A DNA stretch of 64,000 bases from assembly GCF_000423585.1 (NCBI RefSeq), contig NZ_AUIG01000021.1, forward strand, positions 1 to 64,000, in the 5' to 3' direction. Made by a program: the position numbers and the translations under genes. The notes beneath the pieces were generated by a model. That model made no database searches. It saw only the letters and a program-made list of their open reading frames with translations, and had not been told where the DNA came from. Of the stretch, positions 50,777-61,338 are shown in pieces. The DNA comes from Salinimicrobium xinjiangense DSM 19287. GTDB lineage: Bacteria > Bacteroidota > Bacteroidia > Flavobacteriales > Flavobacteriaceae. Positions within the stretch are counted from its first letter, which is position 1, and each line of letters begins with the position of its first letter.

Positions 50777-53134
50777 TTAGAATTTCAGGGTCATCCCTAC
50801 CAGGAAATTTCGGGTGGCCTGCGGATAATATCCTGCACCATCATAGGTCACCCCTTCATAATCGTAAGTGTAGTAGTACCCGTTAGACACATATTCTTCA
50901 CTAAATATGTTATTGATAAGGCCTGTAAGAACCACTTCCTTAAACACAGGTGCCGATCTCCAGGTGTACTGCACATTAAAGTCATTTACAAAATAGCTGT
51001 CCAGACGCGCTTCTTCATTCTGCAGGTTACTCATATACTGCTCTCCCACATATTTTGTAAGGAATTTAAGCTCCAGCCCATCAACGGGCCTGTATTCAAG
51101 AATATTTCCGGCCACTACTCCCGGAGAATATGAGATATCTGTTTTACCAAAGCTTTGCAGTTCTCCATCCCAGCTTGCGAACCAGTCATCATTTTTATTC
51201 CGGCTGATTGCGACATTAGGTCTCCAGCTGAATTTTGGATGTAATACTACTACGGCATCCAATTCAAGACCCAGCCTGTAGCTGTTCCCGCTGTTTCTCC
51301 TTATGGGGGCCCCCACATCATTCAGCTCTCCCGTAAGCACCAGCTGATTGCGGTAGTCCATATAATACAGGTTTGAATTAAGCTGAAAGTTCCCCGACAA
51401 AAATCTCCAGCCCAATTCATAATCATTCAGCTCCTCGGGTTCTGGATTTCCCGCTTCATAATCTGTACGGTTTGGCTCCCGGTGTGCCCTGGCAAATGAA
51501 AAATAGAGCCTGTTGTTTTCTGAAAATTTATAGGTCAGTCCGGCTTTAGGATTGAAGAACGTATGTGTGTCATCAACAATAAAAGGAATATTTTCTTCCT
51601 CCACCCCGTCAACTTCATAATGTATCCTTCTTAACTGAAGATCTCCATAAAGGCTAAGTGCTTCTGAAACTGCCACGGTTGCCTTCCCATACACATTAAA
51701 ATCACTTTTTTGAGATGAGTTGTCGTAATAACGCTGCAATGGCAAACTGGGCGCAAAACGGGTATAAATGATTTCTCCAAAATGGTCTCCTTCATAGTTA
51801 TTCCAGGCGCCACCAAGAATTAGCTCCAGATTATCTGTATCATATTGCACATTAAAAGTGGTTCCGTAGAAATCATTGACCAGCCATTTTTGGGTAACCA
51901 GGTCACTTCGGGTGATTTCCTCACCATTAGCTACAAATGGTTCCAGCCCATATTGGGTGAGTCTACGATTTGCCCGGTAGGACTCATAAAATCCTCTTCC
52001 ATAGGTATAATGAAGGGCAAGGTTGGATGACCAGCCGCCACCATACCTCTCATTCCACAGTAACTGGAAATGATCCTGCTTATAATCATCAACATGATTG
52101 TCGTAAAACTGTAAATTCCCATCGTTGTCTTCATAAGCCCCGGCAGGATTAAATCTCCGGTTTTCCTGTAGTTGATCTGCATCTATCCCATCCCAGGCCT
52201 GGTAAGTTACTTCGCTTCCGCCAAAGGTGAGGGCTTTTATCAAACTGGTTTCTCCCACGTAAGATCCCTGGAAGAAATAAGATTTTAAATCTGAAGAGGC
52301 ACGATCTATATATCCGTCACTTTTGATCACAGAGGCTCTTCCGGAGAATTCCCAGTGGTCATCAAAAATTCCGGTGCTGAATTTAACAGTGTGCTTTCGG
52401 GTATTATAGGATCCAAAACTGTTAGCAATCTCTGCAGAAGGAGCATAGTTATATCTGTCAGTTAGTATATTCAGACTTGCTCCAAATGCGCCGGCCCCGT
52501 TTGTTGAGGTTCCCACCCCTCGTTGCAGCTGAAGGTCTTCAACAGATGACGCGAAATCTCCCAGGTTGACCCAGAAGGTTCCCTGGCTTTCGGCATCATT
52601 ATAGGGAACTCCGTTGATGGTGACATTAATTCCCCGGGCTTCTGTACCTCTTACCCTGATGCTGCTATAACCAATTCCCGCACCGGCGTCGCTGGTAGTA
52701 ACCACATTAGGCATATATTGCATTAAAGTAGGAATGTCCTGTCCCAGGTTGCGATCCTCGATCTCCTCATTGGTAAGATTGCTGTAGGTAATGGGAGAGG
52801 CTGCAGTTACACGAACTGCTGAAAGAAATACCTCATCCAGCACTTCCTGTGCATCGCTCATGTCAACATTGAGTACAAGATCTTCAGAGAGGTCAATCCT
52901 TATTCTCTTTTGGTTCCCGAAAGAAAAAATAAGATGATGTACTCCCTCTTTCAACTGAAGCTCATAATTACCCTGAGCATTGGTTTGAGTAAAGCGGGAA
53001 CTGCCATCGGGTCGTACGAGCACACCGGCAAGAGGCGTTCCGCCATCTGTCACTGTTCCCGACACCTGGAATTCCTGTGAATAACCGCTACCTGCGGCAA
53101 GTAAAAAACTGAAAATTAAGAAAACATGTTTCAT
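50777..53134 (-). CDS. TonB-dependent receptor, predicted thiamine transporter
   Basis: This 785-residue outer-membrane receptor has a signal peptide (residues 1-20), a carboxypeptidase-like domain (about 22-100), a TonB-box-like EVFLSAVRVTAASP segment, a plug (LGQDIPTLMQYMPNVV to GAFGASLNIL) and a beta-barrel ending in FLVGMTLKF. The start at 53134 (MKHVFLIFSFLL) is chosen over a longer frame. Its leader carries a clear TPP riboswitch with a terminator, so its ligand is very likely thiamine or a precursor. That logic is established for TPP-regulated TonB receptors in Bacteroidota. It is single-gene and the terminal gene of its transcript. Confidence 0.92.
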   Translation of the reverse strand: MKHVFLIFSFLLAAGSGYSQEFQVSGTVTDGGTPLAGVLVRPDGSSRFTQTNAQGNYELQLKEGVHHLIFSFGNQKRIRIDLSEDLVLNVDMSDAQEVLDEVFLSAVRVTAASPITYSNLTNEEIEDRNLGQDIPTLMQYMPNVVTTSDAGAGIGYSSIRVRGTEARGINVTINGVPYNDAESQGTFWVNLGDFASSVEDLQLQRGVGTSTNGAGAFGASLNILTDRYNYAPSAEIANSFGSYNTRKHTVKFSTGIFDDHWEFSGRASVIKSDGYIDRASSDLKSYFFQGSYVGETSLIKALTFGGSEVTYQAWDGIDADQLQENRRFNPAGAYEDNDGNLQFYDNHVDDYKQDHFQLLWNERYGGGWSSNLALHYTYGRGFYESYRANRRLTQYGLEPFVANGEEITRSDLVTQKWLVNDFYGTTFNVQYDTDNLELILGGAWNNYEGDHFGEIIYTRFAPSLPLQRYYDNSSQKSDFNVYGKATVAVSEALSLYGDLQLRRIHYEVDGVEEENIPFIVDDTHTFFNPKAGLTYKFSENNRLYFSFARAHREPNRTDYEAGNPEPEELNDYELGWRFLSGNFQLNSNLYYMDYRNQLVLTGELNDVGAPIRRNSGNSYRLGLELDAVVVLHPKFSWRPNVAISRNKNDDWFASWDGELQSFGKTDISYSPGVVAGNILEYRPVDGLELKFLTKYVGEQYMSNLQNEEARLDSYFVNDFNVQYTWRSAPVFKEVVLTGLINNIFSEEYVSNGYYYTYDYEGVTYDGAGYYPQATRNFLVGMTLKF

Positions 53135-53193
53135 TCGTAAAAAATGGTTACGAATAAAAGGGGCTGTTATTCCTGTTGTTATAAAATAAAAAA

Positions 53194-53221
53194 TCCTGAT
53201 AACCATTAGCGGTTAACAGGA
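53194..53221 (-). terminator. Expression-platform terminator of the TPP riboswitch
   Basis: On the minus strand the arms TCCTGTTAACC and GGTTATCAGGA pair over 11 bp with one mismatch around a GCTAAT loop, followed by TTTTTTATTTTAT. It lies 60 bp before the receptor ATG and after the aptamer, so ligand binding would stop transcription. Confidence 0.85.
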
Positions 53222-53249
53222 GTGCTATACTTGCAAGATGCTGTTTTTG

Positions 53250-53345
53250 CATCTTTCCCTTGGCAGCATTACCTGCCCAGGTTCTTTGGGTATGATCTCA
53301 GCTTCCTACGGCTTTCACCGAAGTAGGCACCCCTTTGAGACGCGG
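53250..53345 (-). promoter_or_regulatory. TPP riboswitch (THI element)
   Basis: Read on the minus strand, the leader has the conserved TPP aptamer blocks in order: AAAGGGGTGCC (53326-53336), GCTGAGAT (53295-53302), ACCC then AGAACCTG (53275-53290), and CAGGTAATGCTG then AAGGGA (53255-53275). Stems P2 and P3 can form around these. The promoter -7 box TACCTTTG (53346-53353, minus) directly precedes it, and a terminator follows. It controls the TonB receptor at 50777-53134. Confidence 0.95.
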
Positions 53346-53430: not shown

Positions 53431-55845
53431 ATGGCTAAGAAAAGGTCTTCTATAACGTTCACGGTATTTGCCGGTTATCTTCTACTTACGGTTCTTATGG
53501 GACTTGCGGTATGGTTTATTTATAATCAGGTAATTGATTATGCAAGCATGACCGGAAGAAGTGCCTCCGGAAATCAAAAACTCCTGCTGGTGGGAGATGC
53601 TGCCACCAAATTATATGAAGCGGAAAGCCTTAGCCGCCAGTTGATCCAAACCGGAGATATCGAGGGGCTGGATACTTATACACAAAAAATAGATTCTATT
53701 AAGACTACCCTGGCTTCCCTCCAAAATTTTCGCACTGATAGTTCCCTGGACCAGGAGATTGACAGTATCAACGTGCTTTTATCCCGTAAAACTGAAAACC
53801 TCAAGGAACTTCTCGAACTTAGAGCATTGGGAGAGACCGAGAGTTATTATGCCCGCGTACTGAATGAACTGCAAAGGGTAGATGAAAATTTCGAAAGAAG
53901 AAATTACGAGCAGCGTTTCAAGGACTTACAACCTCATCAACGCCAGCTGCTAATAAAACTGCTTCAATATTCAGATGCCGAAAACCCGGAACCTCCCGGG
54001 ATCACTATAGATTCCCTGGTCAATTCGGTTAAAACAGTTTTGAGTCAGCTGGAGACGAGGGAAAGAAGATACAGGGCTGCTCTCAGAGCACAGGAAGATC
54101 AGCTGCTGGCAAATGAAGTGGAATTAAACAGTAGATTGAGAATCCTTTTTTCAACCCTGGAAACAGAAGAGAGACTTGCCTCTCTTGACCAGGTAGCAGC
54201 CTGGCAGAATACAGTAGAAGAAACCTCACGGATCATAGGATTTCTTGGAGCCGCCAGTCTCATTGTAATTCTCACTTTTGTTTTTCTCGTTACCCAGGAT
54301 GTAATAAAAAGTCAGCGTTACCGTAAGGAACTTGAAGCAGCAAAAACTTATGCCGAATCCCTGCTCTCCAGCCGGGAACAATTTATGAATACTGTTACAC
54401 ACGACCTTAGATCCCCTCTAAACTCTGTAATTGGCTATACGGGTTTGCTAGAAAAGAGTGGACTGAACAAATCACAGAACCGTTACCTGCGGCAGCTCAA
54501 GAAATCTTCAGATTACCTGTTACACCTCGTAAACGACCTGCTGGACCTCTCGCGACTTGAAGCCGGAAAAATGTCTATTGAGGAGCTGGCCTTCAATCCG
54601 AAGAATTTGATCGAGGAAACAGTTGAAAATGCAGTACCTCCCGAAAAGCCGCGGGAAGTAGAGGTAATCACAGAAGTAGCTAATGAACTGGATAGACCAG
54701 TGATCACAGACCCTTTCAGGATCAAACAGATCCTCACAAATCTGGTAAGTAATGCCTGTAAATTTACACCCGAAGGCAGTGTGAAGGTGCGGGCCTGGCT
54801 GCGGGAGTCGAAACATAATCCTGTGCTATGTATTGAAGTAAAAGACACCGGTATTGGAATTTCCGAATCCAGGAAAGAACGTGTTTTTGAAGAATTTTCA
54901 CAGGAGGACAACAGCATTGAGAAACGCTATGGAGGTACAGGTCTCGGATTGGCAATCAGCAAAAAATTAACTGATCTTTTACAGGGAAGGATCAGCCTTG
55001 AAAGTGAACCCGGAAAAGGCAGCACCTTCCTGCTGGAAATTCCTGTGGATTATGCAGCCCAGAACGAAACACCCGGTCCCGGCACAGCTGTACAGATAAA
55101 GGATCCGGAGAAACTCAGTGTCTTAATAGTCGATGATGAACCGGCTCAACTGGGACTCTTAAAAGAACTCATCAGGAGTACAGGCATGTCATTTCGCACT
55201 GCAAAAAATGGCAGGGAGGCGCTTGAGAAGCTAAAGAATGCAGAAGCAGACCTTGTGCTTACAGACATTCAGATGCCTAAGATGGATGGATTCGAGCTTC
55301 TGAGAAAAATCAATGATGATCCCAAATTACAACACCTGCCTGTAGTTGCGCTTTCGGGGCAGCCTAACATAAGTCCTGCAGAATACCTCAAAATGGGATT
55401 TCGCGGTAGCCTTTTAAAACCTTATTCCTCGCAGAAATTACTGCAGATCATTGGGGATCTGCTCAACATAAAATTAGCCAATGTAGCCGCTCCCGCTCCT
55501 GTTTCCAAAGATCCGGACAAAGATTACAGCCTTAATGAAATAAGAAATTTTGCAGGAGATGATACTGAAGCCATGGATGCCATTCTTACCGCTTTTATAG
55601 AAAGCACCAGGTCAAATCTTCTGGCGCTGGAACTTGCCCATAAAAAAGCTGAAAAAAAGAAGATTTCTGCCGTTGCTCATAAGATGCTACCAATGTTCAG
55701 GCAACTACAAGTCCCGCATATAATAAGCAAACTAGCTGTTCTGGAAACTGCTGAAAGCAAAAAACAGCAAGAAGTTAATGTGAAGCAGCTTATTGGAGAG
55801 ATAAACAATCTGCTAACGCAATTACAAAAGGAAATTAAAGCTTGA
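53431..55845 (+). CDS. Hybrid sensor histidine kinase with receiver and Hpt domains
   Basis: The 804-residue kinase has TM1 about residues 10-32, a periplasmic coiled-coil-rich sensor of about 235 residues, and TM2 about 269-290. HisKA follows with His324 (TVTHDLRSPLNSVIG), then an ATPase domain (NLVSNACKFTPEG, GGTGLGLAISKKL), a receiver with Asp612 (LTDIQMPKMDG) and an Hpt domain with His750 (VAHKML). It is a full His-Asp-His phosphorelay module. It converges on a sigma-54 response regulator gene with an 11-bp overlap; together they are a likely four-step relay. Confidence 0.92.
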   Translation: MAKKRSSITFTVFAGYLLLTVLMGLAVWFIYNQVIDYASMTGRSASGNQKLLLVGDAATKLYEAESLSRQLIQTGDIEGLDTYTQKIDSIKTTLASLQNFRTDSSLDQEIDSINVLLSRKTENLKELLELRALGETESYYARVLNELQRVDENFERRNYEQRFKDLQPHQRQLLIKLLQYSDAENPEPPGITIDSLVNSVKTVLSQLETRERRYRAALRAQEDQLLANEVELNSRLRILFSTLETEERLASLDQVAAWQNTVEETSRIIGFLGAASLIVILTFVFLVTQDVIKSQRYRKELEAAKTYAESLLSSREQFMNTVTHDLRSPLNSVIGYTGLLEKSGLNKSQNRYLRQLKKSSDYLLHLVNDLLDLSRLEAGKMSIEELAFNPKNLIEETVENAVPPEKPREVEVITEVANELDRPVITDPFRIKQILTNLVSNACKFTPEGSVKVRAWLRESKHNPVLCIEVKDTGIGISESRKERVFEEFSQEDNSIEKRYGGTGLGLAISKKLTDLLQGRISLESEPGKGSTFLLEIPVDYAAQNETPGPGTAVQIKDPEKLSVLIVDDEPAQLGLLKELIRSTGMSFRTAKNGREALEKLKNAEADLVLTDIQMPKMDGFELLRKINDDPKLQHLPVVALSGQPNISPAEYLKMGFRGSLLKPYSSQKLLQIIGDLLNIKLANVAAPAPVSKDPDKDYSLNEIRNFAGDDTEAMDAILTAFIESTRSNLLALELAHKKAEKKKISAVAHKMLPMFRQLQVPHIISKLAVLETAESKKQQEVNVKQLIGEINNLLTQLQKEIKA

Positions 55846-57178
55846 TCCCGTACTGCTTCAGTTTATTGTAAAGTGTTTTCCTGTCGATGGAAAGCATTCG
55901 TGCAGCTTTACTTTTATTACCGTGGGTTTTTTCCAGAGCATCAAGGATCAGTTCCTGTTCATTTTTACTCTTGAAAAGGCTAAAGTGTTGCTCTTCTTTC
56001 TGTTCTTCCCTGGCAGCAAGAACTTCGGCAGGCAAACAGGTGGAAGAGATGTATTCTGTTTCAGAAAGAAGCACCGCCCTTTTTACCACATTTTTAAGCT
56101 CCCTAAGATTTCCCGGCCAGTGATAAGACTTAAATGCAGCTATGGTTTTTTCAGAAAACCCGGTTATATCTTTTTCAAGTTCCTTATTGGCACTATCAAG
56201 AAAGTAATTTGCAAAGATCATTAGATCTTCATCCCTGTCTTTAAGAGAAGGTACTTTTATAGAAAATTCATTCAGCCGGTGATAGAGATCTTCCCTGAAT
56301 TCACCTTTTTTAACCAAAGCGAACAGGTCCTCATTTGTTGCTGCAATTACCCGAATGTTTACATTGATCTCTTCATTACTCCCCACCGGCTTCACCTTAC
56401 GCTCCTGCAGAGCACGTAACAGCTGCACCTGCAATTCGTAATTAAGGTTTCCTATTTCGTCCAGGAATATCGTACCACCATTAGCCGCTTCGAAATGCCC
56501 GGTTTTATTATTTACCGCTCCGGTAAATGAGCCTTTAACATGCCCAAAAAATTCACTTGATGCCAACTCCCTGGGAATGGCGCCGCAATCTACTGCGATA
56601 AATGGAGCAGAATTTCTTTTACTCTTATCGTGAATACTTTTTGCGATCTGCTCCTTTCCTGTTCCACTCTCTCCCATTATGAGAACAGACATATTGGTAG
56701 GAGCGACAAGCTCGATATAATTATTCAGTTTTGCAGAAGCCTCGCTTCCTCCTTTGATATAAGTATCTTCTATTTTTGTCGGCTGTGCTTTGGCAGTTCT
56801 TACCGCAGGTACATTCCCTTCATCCTGCAAGGCCTCATTAATAGCTTTCATGATTACCTCAGGATGGAATGGCTTGGCGATATAATCTAAAGCCCCTTCC
56901 TTGATCGCATTTACAGCCATACTTATTTCGGCGTAGCTGGTCATCATGATCACCCCGGTTCTTTCACCTTTTTTATTTATTGCCTGCAGGATTTCCAGCC
57001 CCTCCTTGTCGGGAAGACGTACATCAGAAATTACCACATCATATTTCTTTTTCGCTACAAGATTTAGTGCTTCTGTTGCAGTGTATACAGCATCTACTTC
57101 ACAGTCTTTTTTGACCAGAAAGGTTTTGAGCATGGTGCAAAATGCCACATCATCTTCAACTAAAAGAATTTTAGCCAT
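55835..57178 (-). CDS. Sigma-54-dependent NtrC-type response regulator
   Basis: This 447-residue activator has a receiver with Asp52 (VVISDVRLPDKEG), an AAA+ domain with Walker A GESGTGKEQIAKSI, the sigma-54 contact loop GSFTGA (Ser for the usual Ala), Walker B FLDEIGNL, and a Fis-type HTH at the end (NKSKAARMLSIDRKTLYNKL). It activates transcription from sigma-54 promoters after phosphorylation, probably by the converging hybrid kinase. Its upstream leader holds a structured RNA region and a terminator at 57245-57275. Confidence 0.93.
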   Translation of the reverse strand: MAKILLVEDDVAFCTMLKTFLVKKDCEVDAVYTATEALNLVAKKKYDVVISDVRLPDKEGLEILQAINKKGERTGVIMMTSYAEISMAVNAIKEGALDYIAKPFHPEVIMKAINEALQDEGNVPAVRTAKAQPTKIEDTYIKGGSEASAKLNNYIELVAPTNMSVLIMGESGTGKEQIAKSIHDKSKRNSAPFIAVDCGAIPRELASSEFFGHVKGSFTGAVNNKTGHFEAANGGTIFLDEIGNLNYELQVQLLRALQERKVKPVGSNEEINVNIRVIAATNEDLFALVKKGEFREDLYHRLNEFSIKVPSLKDRDEDLMIFANYFLDSANKELEKDITGFSEKTIAAFKSYHWPGNLRELKNVVKRAVLLSETEYISSTCLPAEVLAAREEQKEEQHFSLFKSKNEQELILDALEKTHGNKSKAARMLSIDRKTLYNKLKQYGIKL

Positions 57179-57241
57179 AGGGTGTTAGAAATTATTGACA
57201 AAATTAGAGTTTTATGCCCCTTAAAAACCAAAAATAAGCAT

Positions 57242-57420
57242 AAAAAAAGGGAGCTATAAAAAATAGCTCCCTTTTCGACAATTTTCCCTTTTGGGTAAAA
57301 TATCCTCCGTTTTACAGTTCACCGGTATTGCTCTCCTGTTGGTGAAAAACAATTAATCTAACACATGTCCCGACGGTGATACTGCCACCAGGAGTCGGTT
57401 TCTCCTAGTTAGGGTGTACA
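57242..57420 (-). ncRNA. Candidate structured RNA upstream of the sigma-54 regulator
   Basis: Read on the minus strand, this 180-base stretch folds into a series of hairpins. One (57370-57398) has a CCGAC/GTCGG stem with inner GGTG/CACC. A second (57318-57346) has TTCACC/GGTGAA with a loop containing AGGAG. Two mutually exclusive hairpins share GTAAAA (57295-57315 and 57281-57301), and a terminator (57245-57275) follows. GGAG motifs recur in loops (near 57331, 57303, 57402). I recognise no named RNA family. Confidence 0.45.
57245..57275 (-). terminator. Strong terminator upstream of the sigma-54 regulator gene
   Basis: A perfect 13-bp stem (AAAAGGGAGCTAT / ATAGCTCCCTTTT) with a 5-base loop is followed on the minus strand by seven T. 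It ends a minus-strand transcript from the PepSY-like gene or a separate small RNA. Confidence 0.88.
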
Positions 57421-57429
57421 ATCTAAAGA

Positions 57430-57786
57430 CTACTTCTCATCGTAAGCCTTATCTTTCTTTTTGTCTTTATCAATCCAGTTTCCCTGGGCATCTGCATAAA
57501 GCTCTTTTTCCTCCCCTTCGGCAGTAGTTACCTTAAGTTTGAATTTTTGTTCTCCTTCATGTTCCTTTACATGAGCTTCTGCGATTGTAGCACCGGCAAA
57601 GTCACGTTCTACGGCCTGTTGTACCTCAGCAGGTAATTCCTGAATTTCAATTTGCCTGAAATCATCCTGTACTCGCTGTTCTACAGTTGCATCAACTTCA
57701 ACCTGTGCTACCTCCTGGGCGGAAATGGTTTGAGCTGAAAATAACATTGCTGATGCTGCTACTACGCTAAGACATATCTTTTTCAT
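57430..57786 (-). CDS. Exported PepSY-like protein
   Basis: This 118-residue exported protein has a signal peptide (residues 1-23, ending TISAQ) and a PepSY-like domain (LPAEVQQAVERDF to KLKVTTAEGEEKELYADAQGNWI), ending in a Lys/Asp-rich tail. PepSY-like proteins of Bacteroidota are periplasmic and of unknown role. It lies upstream of the structured RNA region, on the same strand as the sigma-54 activator. Confidence 0.8.
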   Translation of the reverse strand: MKKICLSVVAASAMLFSAQTISAQEVAQVEVDATVEQRVQDDFRQIEIQELPAEVQQAVERDFAGATIAEAHVKEHEGEQKFKLKVTTAEGEEKELYADAQGNWIDKDKKKDKAYDEK

Positions 57787-57977
57787 AGTTCTAAGTTTTA
57801 AAAGTTTAATTTGTTTTAGTTCGTTTGTTTGAGAATACTATTGGAAAAAGTGAGCCATTTTTTCACCTTTACATTCAAACCCCTGTAAAACAAAGGGATT
57901 AACTTTTATTTTAGAAATGAAAATGCGTAGAACGGGAAATCTTTTCCCCAGATTTATGTAGAAATTTTCCCCAGATC

Positions 57978-58382
57978 TTACTCTTTTAAAGGATCTTTTC
58001 GGGAAGATTTCTTTTTTGAAAGCTTCTTTTTCTCCCTTAGCCGCTTCAGTTTTGCAGCTTTTGAAGGTTTAGTTTTCTTTCGGGGCTTAGGTTTTTTAAG
58101 AGACTCTTTAATAAGATCAAGAAATCTTTGAGTGACAATTTCTTTATTCTTGTGCTGACTTCTGGATTCGTCACATTGAAGAATAAGTTCCCCGGAATTG
58201 GTAATACGGGACTGGAGTTTCCCGGCAATTCTCTCTTTTTCTTCTTCAGAAAGCCCGAGGGAATCCTGAAGCATAAAGTGGAGCTCGACCTTAGAGGCAA
58301 CCTTATTCACATTTTGTCCTCCTGCACCCGAACTCCTTACCGCTTTATAATCAGCTTCCTGTATGAGCTGTTTTTCATCCAC
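57978..58382 (-). CDS. arfB: Peptidyl-tRNA hydrolase ArfB (ribosome rescue)
   Basis: This 134-residue release-factor-like protein has the GGQ motif in SSGAGGQNVNKVASKVEL and a long Lys-rich C-terminal tail that enters the empty mRNA channel. It frees stalled ribosomes by hydrolysing peptidyl-tRNA. The start is GTG 58382, directly after the stop of the DUF4301 gene. It is the last gene of the seven-gene minus-strand operon. Confidence 0.92.
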   Translation of the reverse strand: MDEKQLIQEADYKAVRSSGAGGQNVNKVASKVELHFMLQDSLGLSEEEKERIAGKLQSRITNSGELILQCDESRSQHKNKEIVTQRFLDLIKESLKKPKPRKKTKPSKAAKLKRLREKKKLSKKKSSRKDPLKE

Positions 58383-59933
58383 TTATTTTACCTGATGTGA
58401 AGGTTTAAGAAGATCTGCCACTGTTTTTACCGGATTGAAGGTTTCAACCGGAACTTCAACAAACACAGTATTCCATCCAGCCATAGCTCCATTCCACAGG
58501 CCGGGAAGTTCAAGGGCTTTTAGTTCTTTTCCGTCTTTTGTTTTACCGGCAATAAAGCTGGTTTCCTCGTCTATAAATTCTGAAAGATCAAATTTTTCTC
58601 CCATGTAGTTTTTAAAAGAACTAACTATGTCTACCGGATTAAAATGCGTGGCCTCCTGTGCAATTTTACTTTGCTGATAGTTTTCGTGGTCTATTTGAGA
58701 ACTTTCTACAATCTGAAGAGATATCTCTCCATTTTTATGAGTGACCCAGAAAGGACCACCTCCGGGCTCTCCCTCGTTTTTCACCATTCCACAAACTCTG
58801 ATGGGACGGTTAAGGAGTTTTTTTATAGTAGCTGTTTTCTCCTCTTTTTGAAGTTCGTCAAAATTTATACTTAAACCGGCATTGAGTTCCTCCTGAAGAA
58901 AATGCACCATTTGCTGAAGTTGCTCATCCCGGGTTTCAGTTTCAAGCTCCTTCAAATATTTAAAACTCTTCTCCTGTAGTCCAAGCAACTTACCGGCTAA
59001 CATCCTCTTATAGGATGCCAAGAGTTCCCGATTGCGCGGAGTAACCACGTTGTCAATATTTTTGATAAAAACGAGGTCCGCATCCTGGTCGTTCAGGTTC
59101 CTGATCAATGCCCCATGCCCACCGGGCCTGAAAAATATTTCGCCGTTTTCATCCCTGAAAGGTTCATTTTCCTTTGTAACCGCAACAGTATCGGTTTTTG
59201 GATCCTGGTATGAATAGGTGACCTCAAAATTATGCCCGGTTTCTTTCTGAAGCCGTGGCACCACCTCTTTAACCTCCTGTTCAAATTTTTCCCTGTGCTC
59301 TTCAGAAACTGTGAAATGTACACGCACCTTCTTATTGGAGGCAGCATAATCTACAGCCTCTACGAGATGCTCTTCCACGGCAGTAGCAAGATGATCTCCA
59401 TATTTGTGGAACGGCACCAGTCCCTTTGGCTGGTCACCCAGGTTGAGACCATCTTCCTCAAGCATATATTTCACAAAAAGGTAATTCTTTTGATCTTCAG
59501 AAAGATTCTCAAAGTCTTTTTCTGTCCGGGAAATTCTTTCTATTAAGCTTTCATAAAATGGGAGATCTTTTATCCTGCCAAAAAACACTTCAAGGTTTCT
59601 GTCATTTTTACGGTCGATATAGTCTTCTAAAGAATCATTACCGGGATCAAATTCCCTGAGCAGGTTGTAGAATGCCTTAAACATTCGGGTGGCGGCACCC
59701 GAGGCAGGAACAAATTTGATTATTCCCAAACCATCCCTGCGGGAGTCGTAATACTCTGAAAGTTTTTTACGGTCATCTTCAGAAATGACCTGAATTCCGT
59801 TTTTTACGGTGGCCGCCTCCCTGATATTGACCACTACATTGCCTCTTCTAAAAATTTCTATTTGCTGTTGTACTTTTTCGGGAGTGATTCCTTTTTTTTG
59901 GATCTGTGAGATATCCTTTTCGCTAAAGTTCAA
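58383..59933 (-). CDS. DUF4301 protein
   Basis: This 516-residue cytoplasmic protein belongs to Bacteroidota family DUF4301. It has the motif IKFVPASGAATRMFKAF near residue 95, GGHGALIRNLND about midway and GEPGGGPFWVTH in the C-terminal half. These glycine-rich loops suggest nucleotide or phosphate binding. The function is unknown. It overlaps the NadR-like kinase by 11 bp upstream and touches arfB downstream, so it is in the same operon. Confidence 0.85.
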   Translation of the reverse strand: MNFSEKDISQIQKKGITPEKVQQQIEIFRRGNVVVNIREAATVKNGIQVISEDDRKKLSEYYDSRRDGLGIIKFVPASGAATRMFKAFYNLLREFDPGNDSLEDYIDRKNDRNLEVFFGRIKDLPFYESLIERISRTEKDFENLSEDQKNYLFVKYMLEEDGLNLGDQPKGLVPFHKYGDHLATAVEEHLVEAVDYAASNKKVRVHFTVSEEHREKFEQEVKEVVPRLQKETGHNFEVTYSYQDPKTDTVAVTKENEPFRDENGEIFFRPGGHGALIRNLNDQDADLVFIKNIDNVVTPRNRELLASYKRMLAGKLLGLQEKSFKYLKELETETRDEQLQQMVHFLQEELNAGLSINFDELQKEEKTATIKKLLNRPIRVCGMVKNEGEPGGGPFWVTHKNGEISLQIVESSQIDHENYQQSKIAQEATHFNPVDIVSSFKNYMGEKFDLSEFIDEETSFIAGKTKDGKELKALELPGLWNGAMAGWNTVFVEVPVETFNPVKTVADLLKPSHQVK

Positions 59934-60501
59934 TTTGTTTATTTTTTAATTCGTCAATAATCCTGATAGCTGCCTGAAACCGCTGTTGCAGGTTTCCACG
60001 CAACACCCGGTAGGGCAAATCATTTTCATCAAGGGTATTTTTGAATCTGGCAAACATCATATCCCGCTGCAGGGGCCGGTCGCGCAGATCGTCTTCAACC
60101 CAGGGAACGTCAATATACGTTAAAAAATAGAGATCATATTGAGCCTTTAACGCATGTTTAAGAAGTAAAGGTTCTACAAATTCGTTGTAGTAAGCCTTGG
60201 AATAAACCACCAGTTCCAGAAGATTGGTATCGCAAAAAAGGAGCTCGTTAGCCACTGCTGCTTCTTTGTTCTCAAGACTCATCTGCCCCTTTGCAATGTG
60301 CATTAGATCATGAGGTTCACAGGCTTTTCTTTCCTCATCCCACTTTAGCTGCAGGTACTCCCGCATATATTCGGGTACCCACCGGGTTTCATAGTGTTTT
60401 GCCAGCATTCTTGCCAGAGTGGTTTTCCCCGTGGATTCGGGACCAAAAAGCACAATTTTTAAGAGGTCACGTGACCGCCGCTGCTCAAGCTCTTCTTCCA
60501 T
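59923..60501 (-). CDS. NadR-like ATPase / nucleoside kinase
   Basis: This 192-residue P-loop kinase has the NadR C-terminal domain pattern: VLFGPESTGKTTLARML, RWVPEYMREYLQ, and a lid region DVPWVEDDLRDRPLQRD. NadR domains phosphorylate nicotinamide riboside. The gene overlaps the Pnu transporter by 43 bp, so transport and phosphorylation are coupled in a metabolic trap. Given the linked thiamine-binding-like protein, thiamine as substrate is also possible. Confidence 0.85.
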   Translation of the reverse strand: MEEELEQRRSRDLLKIVLFGPESTGKTTLARMLAKHYETRWVPEYMREYLQLKWDEERKACEPHDLMHIAKGQMSLENKEAAVANELLFCDTNLLELVVYSKAYYNEFVEPLLLKHALKAQYDLYFLTYIDVPWVEDDLRDRPLQRDMMFARFKNTLDENDLPYRVLRGNLQQRFQAAIRIIDELKNKQIEL

Positions 60502-61094
60502 GTTTTATATCCATAAACTGCTATAATTGTAAAAAGCAGGTATTGAAAACTTGTAAATGTAAGACCCTTATAGAAGTATAGCGGAACAGAAATAATGTCT
60601 CCCACGATCCAGTAGATCCAGTTTTCAAGTTTTTTCTTTGCCATTAACCACATTCCAACAAAGAAAATTGCGGTGGTTACAGTATCAACATATGCAGTCC
60701 AGTTATCCCACTTGTCAAAATAATCATAGACCCCAAAAGTGAACAGCAATGTAAGCACAAAAATTAAGAGGCTCCAAAAATGCTCTTTTTGAGTAGCCTT
60801 TGTTATGGGAATAAAATGAATGGCGTCAACCTTCCTTGTCCATACATACCATCCATAAATGCTCATGCTAAAGTAGTAGAAGTTGATCATCATGTCTCCC
60901 AGGAGTTCCCATTGCCACAGGAGGTAAACAAATATTGCCGTACTTATTATACCCGTGGGATAGACCAGGATATTTTCCTGTTTCGAGAACCAGACAGAAA
61001 GAAAGCCGAAGATCACCGCAATGATCTCCAGGATAATAAAAAGTGTAGGATAATCTGAATACTGTTGAAAAAAGAAATCAAAAATCGGCTGCAT
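60459..61094 (-). CDS. Pnu-type vitamin transporter (PnuC/PnuT family)
   Basis: This 211-residue inner-membrane protein has about seven helices of the PnuC family, with FGFLSVWFSKQENILVYP near the start and ENWIYWIVGDIISVPLYFYKG late. PnuC carries nicotinamide riboside by facilitated diffusion and PnuT carries thiamine. The binding motif here has Asp (W-x3-D) where PnuC usually has Asn; as I recall, this fits PnuT. A thiamine-binding-like protein overlaps it upstream and a kinase overlaps it downstream. No TPP riboswitch is upstream of this operon. Confidence 0.88.
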   Translation of the reverse strand: MQPIFDFFFQQYSDYPTLFIILEIIAVIFGFLSVWFSKQENILVYPTGIISTAIFVYLLWQWELLGDMMINFYYFSMSIYGWYVWTRKVDAIHFIPITKATQKEHFWSLLIFVLTLLFTFGVYDYFDKWDNWTAYVDTVTTAIFFVGMWLMAKKKLENWIYWIVGDIISVPLYFYKGLTFTSFQYLLFTIIAVYGYKTWKKSLSSGGHVTS

Positions 61095-61338
61095 AGTCGC
61101 TTCTGTTTCCTTTCACAATTTTCATACTTAGCAACACATGATCTGAAGCCTGAAAAGTTTCTTTTACTTCTTCCGTAAGGAATTCCATCACCTTATCATA
61201 TTCACCATACACCTGGGTGCTCAGCGGATTTTCCATTACCGTTAATCCCGAACTTCGGAGTTTCTTAATAAAAGCTTTGATAGGTGCTTCAAAGTCATCC
61301 TGAAGCGGAGTGAGCGCAAGTTCTACAGAAATTTGCAT
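61078..61338 (-). CDS. Thiamine-binding-like protein (DUF77/MTH1187-YkoF family)
   Basis: This 86-residue ferredoxin-fold protein of the MTH1187/YkoF family has ISVELALTPL at the start, STQVYGEYDKVMEFLTE in the middle and LLSMKIVKGN at the end. YkoF of Bacillus binds thiamine and HMP. I chose ATG 61338; the longer frame to 61461 overlaps the upstream gene and has no conserved residues. It overlaps the Pnu transporter by 17 bp, supporting a shared thiamine-related role. Confidence 0.82.
   Translation of the reverse strand: MQISVELALTPLQDDFEAPIKAFIKKLRSSGLTVMENPLSTQVYGEYDKVMEFLTEEVKETFQASDHVLLSMKIVKGNRSDYAADF

Follow-up and report, generated by a model that had tools for sequence, protein, structure and literature searches.

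A NadR-type kinase beside a PnuT-like transporter is a likely thiamine kinase in Salinimicrobium xinjiangense and related Bacteroidia

Introduction

Which vitamin is imported and phosphorylated when the gene for a NadR-like kinase overlaps that for a Pnu-family transporter? This question is raised by a 64,000-nucleotide stretch of the Salinimicrobium xinjiangense DSM 19287 genome (positions 1 to 64,000 of contig NZ_AUIG01000021.1), referred to here as the window. The original prediction described the locus as an uptake-and-phosphorylation trap and left the choice between nicotinamide riboside (NR) and thiamine open. We conclude that thiamine is favored over NR by a transporter tree, a riboswitch survey, and the distribution of the kinase and thiamine pyrophosphokinase (TPK) across genomes. 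The vitamin of the system is thus most likely thiamine, although this substrate is inferred from sequence data.

Results

Gene order at the transporter-kinase locus

Three overlapping genes on the minus strand encode a Thiamine_BP/YkoF-type protein (61078..61338; 86 aa from its ATG; PF01910), a PnuT-like inner-membrane transporter of the Pnu family (60459..61094; 211 aa), and a NadR-ribosylnicotinamide-kinase-like P-loop kinase (59923..60501; 192 aa), which we propose to be a thiamine kinase. The predicted overlaps of 17 bp (binding protein and transporter) and 43 bp (transporter and kinase) are exact, and the reading frames lie where they had been placed. The string contains a fourth gene that had gone unmentioned, a DUF4301 gene (58383..59933, minus strand; 516 aa; PF14134, 1.8e-214), which overlaps the kinase gene by 11 bp and is last in the string. 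In the ORF list, the binding-protein frame begins at an upstream TTG and spans 127 aa, compared to 86 aa from the ATG. A TAnnTTTG-like -7 box is discernible by eye 5' of the binding-protein gene, and we make no claim for it.

The gene layout is not due to chance, because the same order recurs across 80 named loci, which were the 80 best matches among 567 relatives and therefore lean to close relatives. Among these best 80, the kinase adjoins the transporter in 79, the transporter adjoins the binding-protein gene in 66 (55 of these share the exact 17-bp overlap), and a DUF4301 gene comes after the string in 67. The lone "non-adjacent" transporter belongs to locus L139, whose kinase was given a distant upstream start by mechanical ORF calling.

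The 86-aa protein matches Thiamine_BP PF01910 (32.5 bits, cut-off 24.9; E 8.5e-8) and PDB entry 2ibo (E 1.7e-4), and falls below the cut-off of TIGR00106 (20.8 against 54.7 bits). Inspection by eye revealed no signal peptide. This protein is probably a cytoplasmic binder of thiamine, with both binding and role being inferred.

A TPP riboswitch precedes a TonB-dependent receptor gene 7 kb away

A TPP riboswitch aptamer (53239..53344, minus strand) precedes the gene for an OMthi-like TonB-dependent receptor (50777..53206, minus strand; a start at 53134 was judged likelier). Its RF00059 score of 35.2 bits (E 1.9e-5) is below the gathering threshold of 54.3, and the match is absent when that threshold is applied. 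It aligns to the full model (1-105) with the core elements CUGAGA, ACCC, GAACCU, and UAAU, and no other TPP riboswitch in the genome matches at E <= 0.001. The predicted TPP-controlled receptor 7 kb away was thereby borne out, albeit with a sub-threshold score. An Rfam search of the window detected no riboswitch 5' of the transporter-kinase string, and the riboswitch controls the receptor only. The receptor is 42% identical over 732 aligned columns to that of a Bacteroides finegoldii riboswitch-receptor-pnuT-TPK operon, whose riboswitch scores over the cut-off, and is putatively an OMthi-like thiamine receptor.

At E <= 0.05, a TPP riboswitch was found somewhere in 119 of 120 genomes of the family set, and 38 of the 120 contain one over the Rfam gathering threshold. 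The kinase is present in 115 of these genomes, after removal of weak second matches (G149:C13 and G203:C2). In at least 89 of the 115, kinase and riboswitch lie within 12 kb on one contig (among the riboswitches listed); in every such case the two share a strand and the kinase lies upstream of the riboswitch. For the other 26, none of the listed riboswitches falls within that distance (7 of these genomes have none listed at all), in part because of draft assemblies and weak riboswitches without a listed place. Thus, the linkage to TPP riboswitches that the original prediction proposed to survey was found, but the riboswitch follows the kinase and precedes the receptor instead of preceding the string.

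In the class set (149 genomes), physical linkage is weaker. A riboswitch is listed within 10 kb of at least 27 kinases, in each case downstream and on the kinase's own strand; some weak riboswitches are absent from those listed, and their kinases were therefore counted as unlinked. Within 1.5 kb of 106 Pnu places, we found the kinase at 64, TPK at 3, and neither at 39, and at least 20 of the 64 kinase-linked places have a listed riboswitch within 10 kb. Three of 109 Pnu rows had been dropped (G078:C3, a 35-bit fragment; G072, an only match, and G115:C13, both below cut-off). Genome G146 has a TPP riboswitch 24 bp upstream of a pnu-kinase pair.

The transporter groups with PnuT of TPK operons

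The transporter matches Pfam NMN_transporter (PF04973, 8.1e-56) and is 31% identical to the Pnu protein of the B. finegoldii TPK operon, compared to 24% for E. coli PnuC. It also passes the NCBI PnuC model TIGR01528 (105.4 against 42.5 bits), which may well take in PnuT too. Trees were built from the best 30 or fewer matches per search (62 transporters and 55 kinases from Bacteroidia, with Flavobacteriaceae contributing 33 of each), with duplicate loci L013, L025, L069, and L070 dropped. As NR references, we used PnuC and NadR of E. coli plus the corresponding pairs of four phages, whose NR type rests on annotation and gene pairing; for the Aeromonas phage, the transporter carries the annotation "hypothetical protein" and passes PF04973.

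The window transporter was observed in a 43-row clade with four TPK-adjacent Pnu proteins (support 96/84), and the NR references fall outside this clade. Grouping with PnuC would have counted against the thiamine reading; the protein groups instead with the PnuT of TPK operons, although the branch separating the NR references is weak (74/95). Several kinase-adjacent transporters from other families sit outside the clade, near the unresolved base. The tree implies at least three swaps of partner between kinase and TPK, with 58 of 68 rows labeled; this count left out G101 and G065 (which have both enzymes), unlabeled rows, and the NR references.

The Asp predicted at the W-x3-D position is present (W162-IVG-D166; residues 162-166, 60597..60611, minus strand), and all 5 NR-type references have Asn there. 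As a clue to thiamine the residue is supportive and no more than that. We rejected it as a clean marker, because Asn stands at this position in 5 of the 54 transporters next to a kinase and in 1 of the 4 next to TPK. From its sequence, the window transporter is most likely PnuT-like, with thiamine transport itself being inferred.

The kinase is a stand-alone protein of the NadR type

An RNK-type P-loop kinase domain is evident from Pfam, a NadR profile, and the fold. The protein matches AAA_28 (1.9e-42) and aligns to only the C-terminal kinase part of TIGR01526 (165-318 of 325; 97.7 bits, cut-off 341), and its NCBIfam matches are to NadR or generic ATPases. An AlphaFold2 model built from alignment A1 (28 kinases; mean pLDDT 94.8) has NadR 8x7f as its top PDB match (TMq 0.84) and Z scores of 20.4-22.8 to NadR structures. 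The proteins that rank highest among its matches are NadR and thymidylate, deoxycytidine, and adenylate kinases. The nearest solved relatives are thus NadR proteins, which act on NR, an observation that runs against a thiamine substrate.

Pfam matched only AAA_28 and other P-loop families in the 192-aa protein and did not find an NMN adenylyltransferase domain, a domain that it recognizes in E. coli NadR and 3 of 4 phage NadR proteins. The kinase is therefore stand-alone, unlike bifunctional NadR. Neither a TPK catalytic domain (PF04263) nor an APH/choline-kinase-type domain was matched by Pfam at E <= 0.01. Residues E44, R47, D91, W134, D137, and R140 and a Walker A motif (GPESTGKT in the window kinase; residues 20-27; 60421..60444, minus strand) are shared with all five NadR references. 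By contrast, Walker A P21 is found in 53 of the 55 kinases from Bacteroidia and in none of the five references, D131 in 55/55 and 2/5, and P143 in 52/55 and 1/5, respectively. Q73 and G169 were discarded as signature residues, being present in some NadR references as well.

In the kinase tree, the 33 Flavobacteriaceae kinases form one clade (100/99). The five NadR references do not lie on one side of any branch, and L015 and L154 are joined as long branches; we therefore set this tree aside as a guide to function. Class kinases L015 and L031 fall among the NadR references; some distant class matches may therefore be NR or other kinases.

Complementary distribution of the kinase and TPK across genomes

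A profile search of the window genome did not detect TPK (PF04263), and ThiE was likewise not detected; the genome encodes one ThiL (G000:C18) and one Pnu protein. ThiE and TPK are both absent from 82 of the 120 family genomes, of which 81 carry the kinase, and ThiL is present in 79 of these 81. Kinase and TPK occur together in 5 of the 120. ThiE was scored here as a PF02581 match over cut-off (36 genomes); a tally of 37 adds G173, which reaches the cut-off only together with its in-frame neighbors.

We observed a complementary pattern in the class set, where the kinase is present in 75 of 149 genomes. Of 99 genomes with Pnu, 73 have the kinase only, 22 TPK only, 2 both, and 2 neither (Fisher p 1.3e-17, in a set of related genomes and many drafts). 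Collapsing to 45 families gave 29 kinase-only, 12 TPK-only, 2 mixed, and 2 with neither. None of the 50 genomes without Pnu has the kinase. Among the 93 class genomes without ThiE, 66 have the kinase, 21 TPK, and 6 neither, and ThiE is present in 42 of the 48 with neither kinase nor TPK. Class-set ThiE was counted only above 100 bits (56 genomes), which excluded G037, G051, and G088 (60-76 bits) as TenI-like. Second kinase fragments in G008 and G053 were dropped, and two TPK pieces of G057 were joined into one. Coordinates and genome lists for the gene and riboswitch counts were compiled by hand.

ThiL is retained in all 66 kinase-only and all 21 TPK-only class genomes without ThiE. We rejected this retention as evidence for a TMP product; the choice between TMP and TPP is left undecided by it, because TPK-only genomes keep ThiL as well.

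Discussion

In our model, the TonB receptor under TPP-riboswitch control would import thiamine across the outer membrane, and the PnuT-like transporter would equilibrate it across the inner membrane, with the direction of flux being inferred. The NadR-type kinase would then phosphorylate thiamine, trapping it as TMP (substrate and product are both inferred), and ThiL, encoded elsewhere, would convert TMP to TPP, which may feed back on the riboswitch. The kinase would thus substitute for Tnr3/TPK, the thiamine pyrophosphokinase encoded in the Bacteroides operon. The predicted trap is supported by the PnuT grouping, the riboswitch linkage, and the replacement of TPK by the kinase. We hold it to be highly probable, in the absence of any biochemistry, that a NadR-type kinase forming TMP for completion by ThiL retains thiamine brought in by PnuT.

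The transporter and kinase could instead be a PnuC-RNK pair that traps NR for NAD synthesis beside thiamine genes by coincidence. The NadR kinase domains closest to the kinase in structure, the passing score to the PnuC model, and the neighboring NadR and Pnu-family genes in the four phages examined are compatible with this. However, coincidence leaves unexplained why the kinase replaces TPK and occurs in genomes lacking ThiE, and the linkage to a TPP riboswitch and receptor, the PnuT grouping, and the missing adenylyltransferase domain all oppose it; we rejected NR as the main reading and consider it very unlikely. Nor can another thiamine kinase encoded elsewhere, for example of the ThiK/APH type, be discounted by our genome counts, which cover kinase, TPK, ThiE, ThiL, and Pnu and leave APH-fold ThiK outside their scope. 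A different role for the window kinase would leave its complementary distribution with TPK unexplained, however, and we give this possibility very little weight.

Thiamine-related context alone would also fit a kinase acting on a precursor or breakdown product (HMP, HET, or aminopyrimidine). This seems extremely improbable, since the two halves of thiamine cannot be joined by the known route when ThiE is absent, and 81 of the 82 family genomes without ThiE and TPK carry the kinase. If the substrate is thiamine, the kinase might be a P-loop thiamine pyrophosphokinase that forms TPP in one step as a full equivalent of TPK, which its distribution would allow and ThiL retention does not contradict. 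NadR-type P-loop kinases transfer one phosphate, however, as do the thymidylate, deoxycytidine, and adenylate kinases that the model otherwise resembles, making one-step synthesis unlikely. DUF4301, whose AlphaFold2 model (alignment A2, 19 proteins; mean pLDDT 90.6) has a UDP-sugar pyrophosphorylase-like fold, is fused to the kinase in some relatives and genera, as Pfam confirmed for L085. It is conceivable, and in our judgment very doubtful, that the two make up an enzyme that activates thiamine in two steps, with DUF4301 turning TMP into TPP or a nucleotidyl-thiamine compound without need of ThiL.

If thiamine phosphorylation by the NadR-type kinase is correct, a thiamine-phosphorylating enzyme would be added from a family other than TPK and ThiK, and the gap between imported thiamine and TPP would be closed in many Bacteroidia. 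The literature searched describes no NadR-type thiamine kinase. Because the PnuC model claims the transporter and NCBIfam matches the kinase to NadR or generic ATPases, automated pipelines may assign such thiamine genes to NAD salvage, as has happened with the transporter of the B. finegoldii thiamine operon; this would matter for surveys of vitamin B1 auxotrophy.

The same reaction, thiamine phosphorylation, is proposed for the window kinase as for ThiK (YcfN), a thiamine kinase of the APH fold, and for TPK/ThiN. The window kinase belongs to a different family, matching neither TPK_catalytic nor APH. ThiK and ThiN are named as salvage enzymes in PMC6593275. Another close counterpart of the window kinase is the ribosylnicotinamide kinase domain of NadR, as in E. 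coli, H. influenzae, L. lactis, and phages. Compared to PnuC (4qtn and the E. coli protein), the window transporter is of the same PF04973 family and size but has W-x3-D in place of W-x3-N and falls outside the NR group in the tree. The closest known system is the OMthi-pnuT-tnr3 thiamine uptake operon of gut Bacteroides, as described in PMC5613172, of which the B. finegoldii copy is our locus L153. The two share a TPP riboswitch before a TonB receptor, a Pnu transporter, and an adjoining thiamine-phosphorylating enzyme (proposed in the window). In contrast to that operon, the window has a NadR-type P-loop kinase instead of Tnr3/TPK, adds the Thiamine_BP gene and DUF4301, and places its riboswitch after the transporter-kinase string and before the receptor.

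Distribution of the NadR-like kinase and enzymes of thiamine metabolism

ThiL is present in the genome of S. xinjiangense DSM 19287, in which neither thiamine pyrophosphokinase (TPK) nor ThiE was found. Thus, none of the known enzymes searched for, which included TPK and ThiE but not ThiK-type thiamine kinases, would convert imported thiamine into thiamine monophosphate (TMP) or TPP. Both ThiE and TPK are missing from 82 of 120 Flavobacteriaceae genomes, and 81 of these 82 encode the 192-residue NadR-like P-loop kinase; the remaining one (G227) is a draft of 81% completeness. ThiL is found in 79 of the 81. TPK occurs in 3 of the 5 family genomes without the kinase compared to 5 of the 115 with it (p = 0.0019). 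In the Bacteroidia set, 99 of 149 genomes encode a Pnu transporter over the cut-off, with the kinase only (73), TPK only (22), both (2) or neither (2) (p = 1.3e-17), and 0 of the 50 genomes without Pnu contain the kinase. Counting by family, which lessened the effect of kinship on this split, gave 29 kinase-only, 12 TPK-only, 2 mixed, and 2 neither among 45 families. Similarly, the 93 class genomes without ThiE divide into 66 with the kinase, 21 with TPK, and 6 with neither, and ThiE is present in 42 of the 48 class genomes that have neither kinase nor TPK. On the transporter tree, kinase and TPK have replaced each other as partner on at least three occasions. We conclude that kinase and TPK are distributed like two unrelated enzymes that perform one job with a common transporter, which favors thiamine as the vitamin; the whole case is comparative and is drawn from related genomes, many of them drafts.

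Gene order and TPP riboswitch linkage

Four overlapping minus-strand genes encode, in order, a Thiamine_BP-like protein (61078-61338), the Pnu transporter (60459-61094), the kinase (59923-60501), and a DUF4301 protein (58383-59933). The overlaps of 17 bp (Thiamine_BP/transporter) and 43 bp (transporter/kinase) in the original prediction are borne out by the ORF coordinates, and kinase and DUF4301 genes overlap by 11 bp. Gene order was compared across 80 named loci found with the kinase as query (best 80 of 567 relatives, the closest named ones being Salinimicrobium sediminis at 80% and S. catena at 63% identity). Kinase and transporter genes are neighbors in 79 of these loci. The Thiamine_BP gene sits next to the transporter gene in 66, of which 55 show an overlap of exactly 17 bp. 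DUF4301 comes after the kinase in 67, and 73 have a same-strand downstream receptor that matches that of the window (E ≤ 1e-5).

A TPP riboswitch (53239-53344, minus strand; 35.2 bits, E 1.9e-5) lies beyond the gene string, ≈6.6 kb from the kinase, followed by a TonB-dependent receptor gene (50777-53206, minus strand). It is missing from a default Rfam scan because its score is under the gathering threshold of 54.3, and a genome-wide search detected no second TPP riboswitch at E ≤ 0.001. Linkage of TPP riboswitches to homologous operons, which had been proposed for survey, was found in the family set, where 89 of 115 kinase-bearing genomes have, among the matches listed, a riboswitch within 12 kb of the kinase on the same contig; but the riboswitch follows the kinase and precedes the receptor. 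All 89 are on the kinase strand and downstream, which implies that the riboswitch belongs to the receptor and not to the transporter-kinase string. The link is looser in the class set, where the kinase is within 1.5 kb of Pnu at 64 of 106 Pnu places and a riboswitch within 10 kb at 20 of these 64. Again, all 27 class-set kinases with a riboswitch within 10 kb have it downstream on the same strand; one genome (G146) has a second riboswitch 24 bp before its pnu-kinase pair.

The kinase-riboswitch distance is ≈2 kb in many relatives compared to 6.6 kb here, suggesting that genes were inserted or lost. The intervening region (53431-58382) contains ORFs named by eye only: release-factor-like (57978-58382), small (57430-57786), response-regulator-like (55835-57178), and, on the opposite strand, hybrid histidine-kinase-like (53431-55845).

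Properties of the kinase and its predicted product

Judged by its sequence and modeled fold, the kinase corresponds to the NR-kinase domain of NadR, NR being nicotinamide riboside. The AlphaFold2 model (mean pLDDT 94.8) best matches solved NadR 8x7f (TM-score 0.84; VIA-align Z 22.8, rmsd 2.4 over 181 residues), compared to Z ≈16 for thymidylate and deoxycytidine kinases. Pfam detected no NMN adenylyltransferase domain in the window kinase; it found this domain in E. coli NadR and three of four phage NadR proteins, and not in the fourth. Three residues are candidate, untested specificity marks: P21 in the Walker A loop (53/55 Bacteroidia kinases versus 0/5 NadR references), D131 (55/55 versus 2/5), and P143 (52/55 versus 1/5). 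In the kinase tree, two distant class kinases (L015 and L031) are interspersed with the NadR references; a few such proteins may have other substrates. In phage records, 714 have a PnuC-like gene (15 matches labeled Prevotella phage) and 650 a kinase relative; among the matches listed, 9 of 12 kinase relatives carry the name NadR, NMN adenylyltransferase, or a transcription regulator of this type, and the others are hypothetical or unclear.

Known enzymes of this kinase fold transfer one phosphate, and on this basis we infer, without an assay, that the product is TMP. Retention of ThiL does not decide between TMP and TPP, because ThiL is likewise present in all 21 of the TPK-only class genomes that lack ThiE.

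DUF4301 and the kinase form a single open frame in 3 of the 80 loci (best 80 of 567), two from Croceivirga and one from a MAG (L085:9001-11097, L086:9001-11088, and L105:3665-5827), and Pfam confirmed both domains in L085. Long frames at the kinase suggest more fusions in G065, G101, G151, and G154. The best PDB match of the DUF4301 model is UDP-glucose pyrophosphorylase (E 5.9e-10, TMq 0.44). DUF4301 was mentioned in a single rumen proteome in the open-licence text accessible to us.

Within the accessible portions of open-licence literature, including thiamine kinase and salvage, PnuT, and Tnr3 topics, we found no description of a NadR-type thiamine kinase. An earlier prediction elsewhere is possible, as RegPrecise and SEED were outside the scope of this search. 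A vitamin-gene survey across gut genomes (PMC6593275) assigns thiamine salvage to ThiK, ThiM, and ThiN.

The transporter and comparison with Bacteroides thiamine operons

The window transporter is PnuT-like, with 31% identity to the Pnu protein of a Bacteroides finegoldii operon and 24% to E. coli PnuC. A 68-protein Pnu tree places it in one clade of 43 rows (96/84) with all four TPK-adjacent transporters. The NR references, namely E. coli PnuC plus four phage proteins from Pnu genes beside NadR (five in all, each matching PF04973), lie outside, as do several kinase-adjacent transporters of other families near an unresolved base. Grouping with PnuC, which would have refuted a thiamine function, was therefore not observed, although the branch separating the NR references is not strong (74/95).

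The Asp of the W-x3-D motif, previously taken as a clue to thiamine, is conserved in the B. finegoldii Pnu and in 55 of 62 Bacteroidia transporters, a count that includes 49 of the 54 encoded next to the kinase, and is Asn in 5/5 NR references. The motif thus points to thiamine but is not a clean marker. Asn occurs in 7 of the 62 transporters (L023, L024, L045, L051, L063, L064, and L067), and L023 and L051 also lose the Trp. ThiE is present in five of the seven Asn-bearing genomes (G080, G107, G134, G181, and G207; not G210 and G006) compared to 8 of 29 Asp-bearing Flavobacteriaceae rows; the motif may be relaxed in organisms that synthesize thiamine de novo, a suggestion that rests on small numbers.

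The B. finegoldii operon consists of a riboswitch (63.9 bits, over the Rfam threshold), a receptor, Pnu, and an annotated thiamine diphosphokinase, and its receptor is 42% identical to the window receptor over 732 columns. The full operon is on an 86-kb record labeled as a plasmid (L153, NZ_OY725919.1), which calls the transporter a "nicotinamide riboside transporter," a misleading automatic annotation. For the related OMthi-pnuT-tnr3 operon of gut Bacteroides, the published account (PMC5613172) reports that single deletion of OMthi or pnuT in B. thetaiotaomicron leaves growth unaffected, and that growth at low thiamine is impaired by deletion of both, or of either one together with thiamine biosynthesis.
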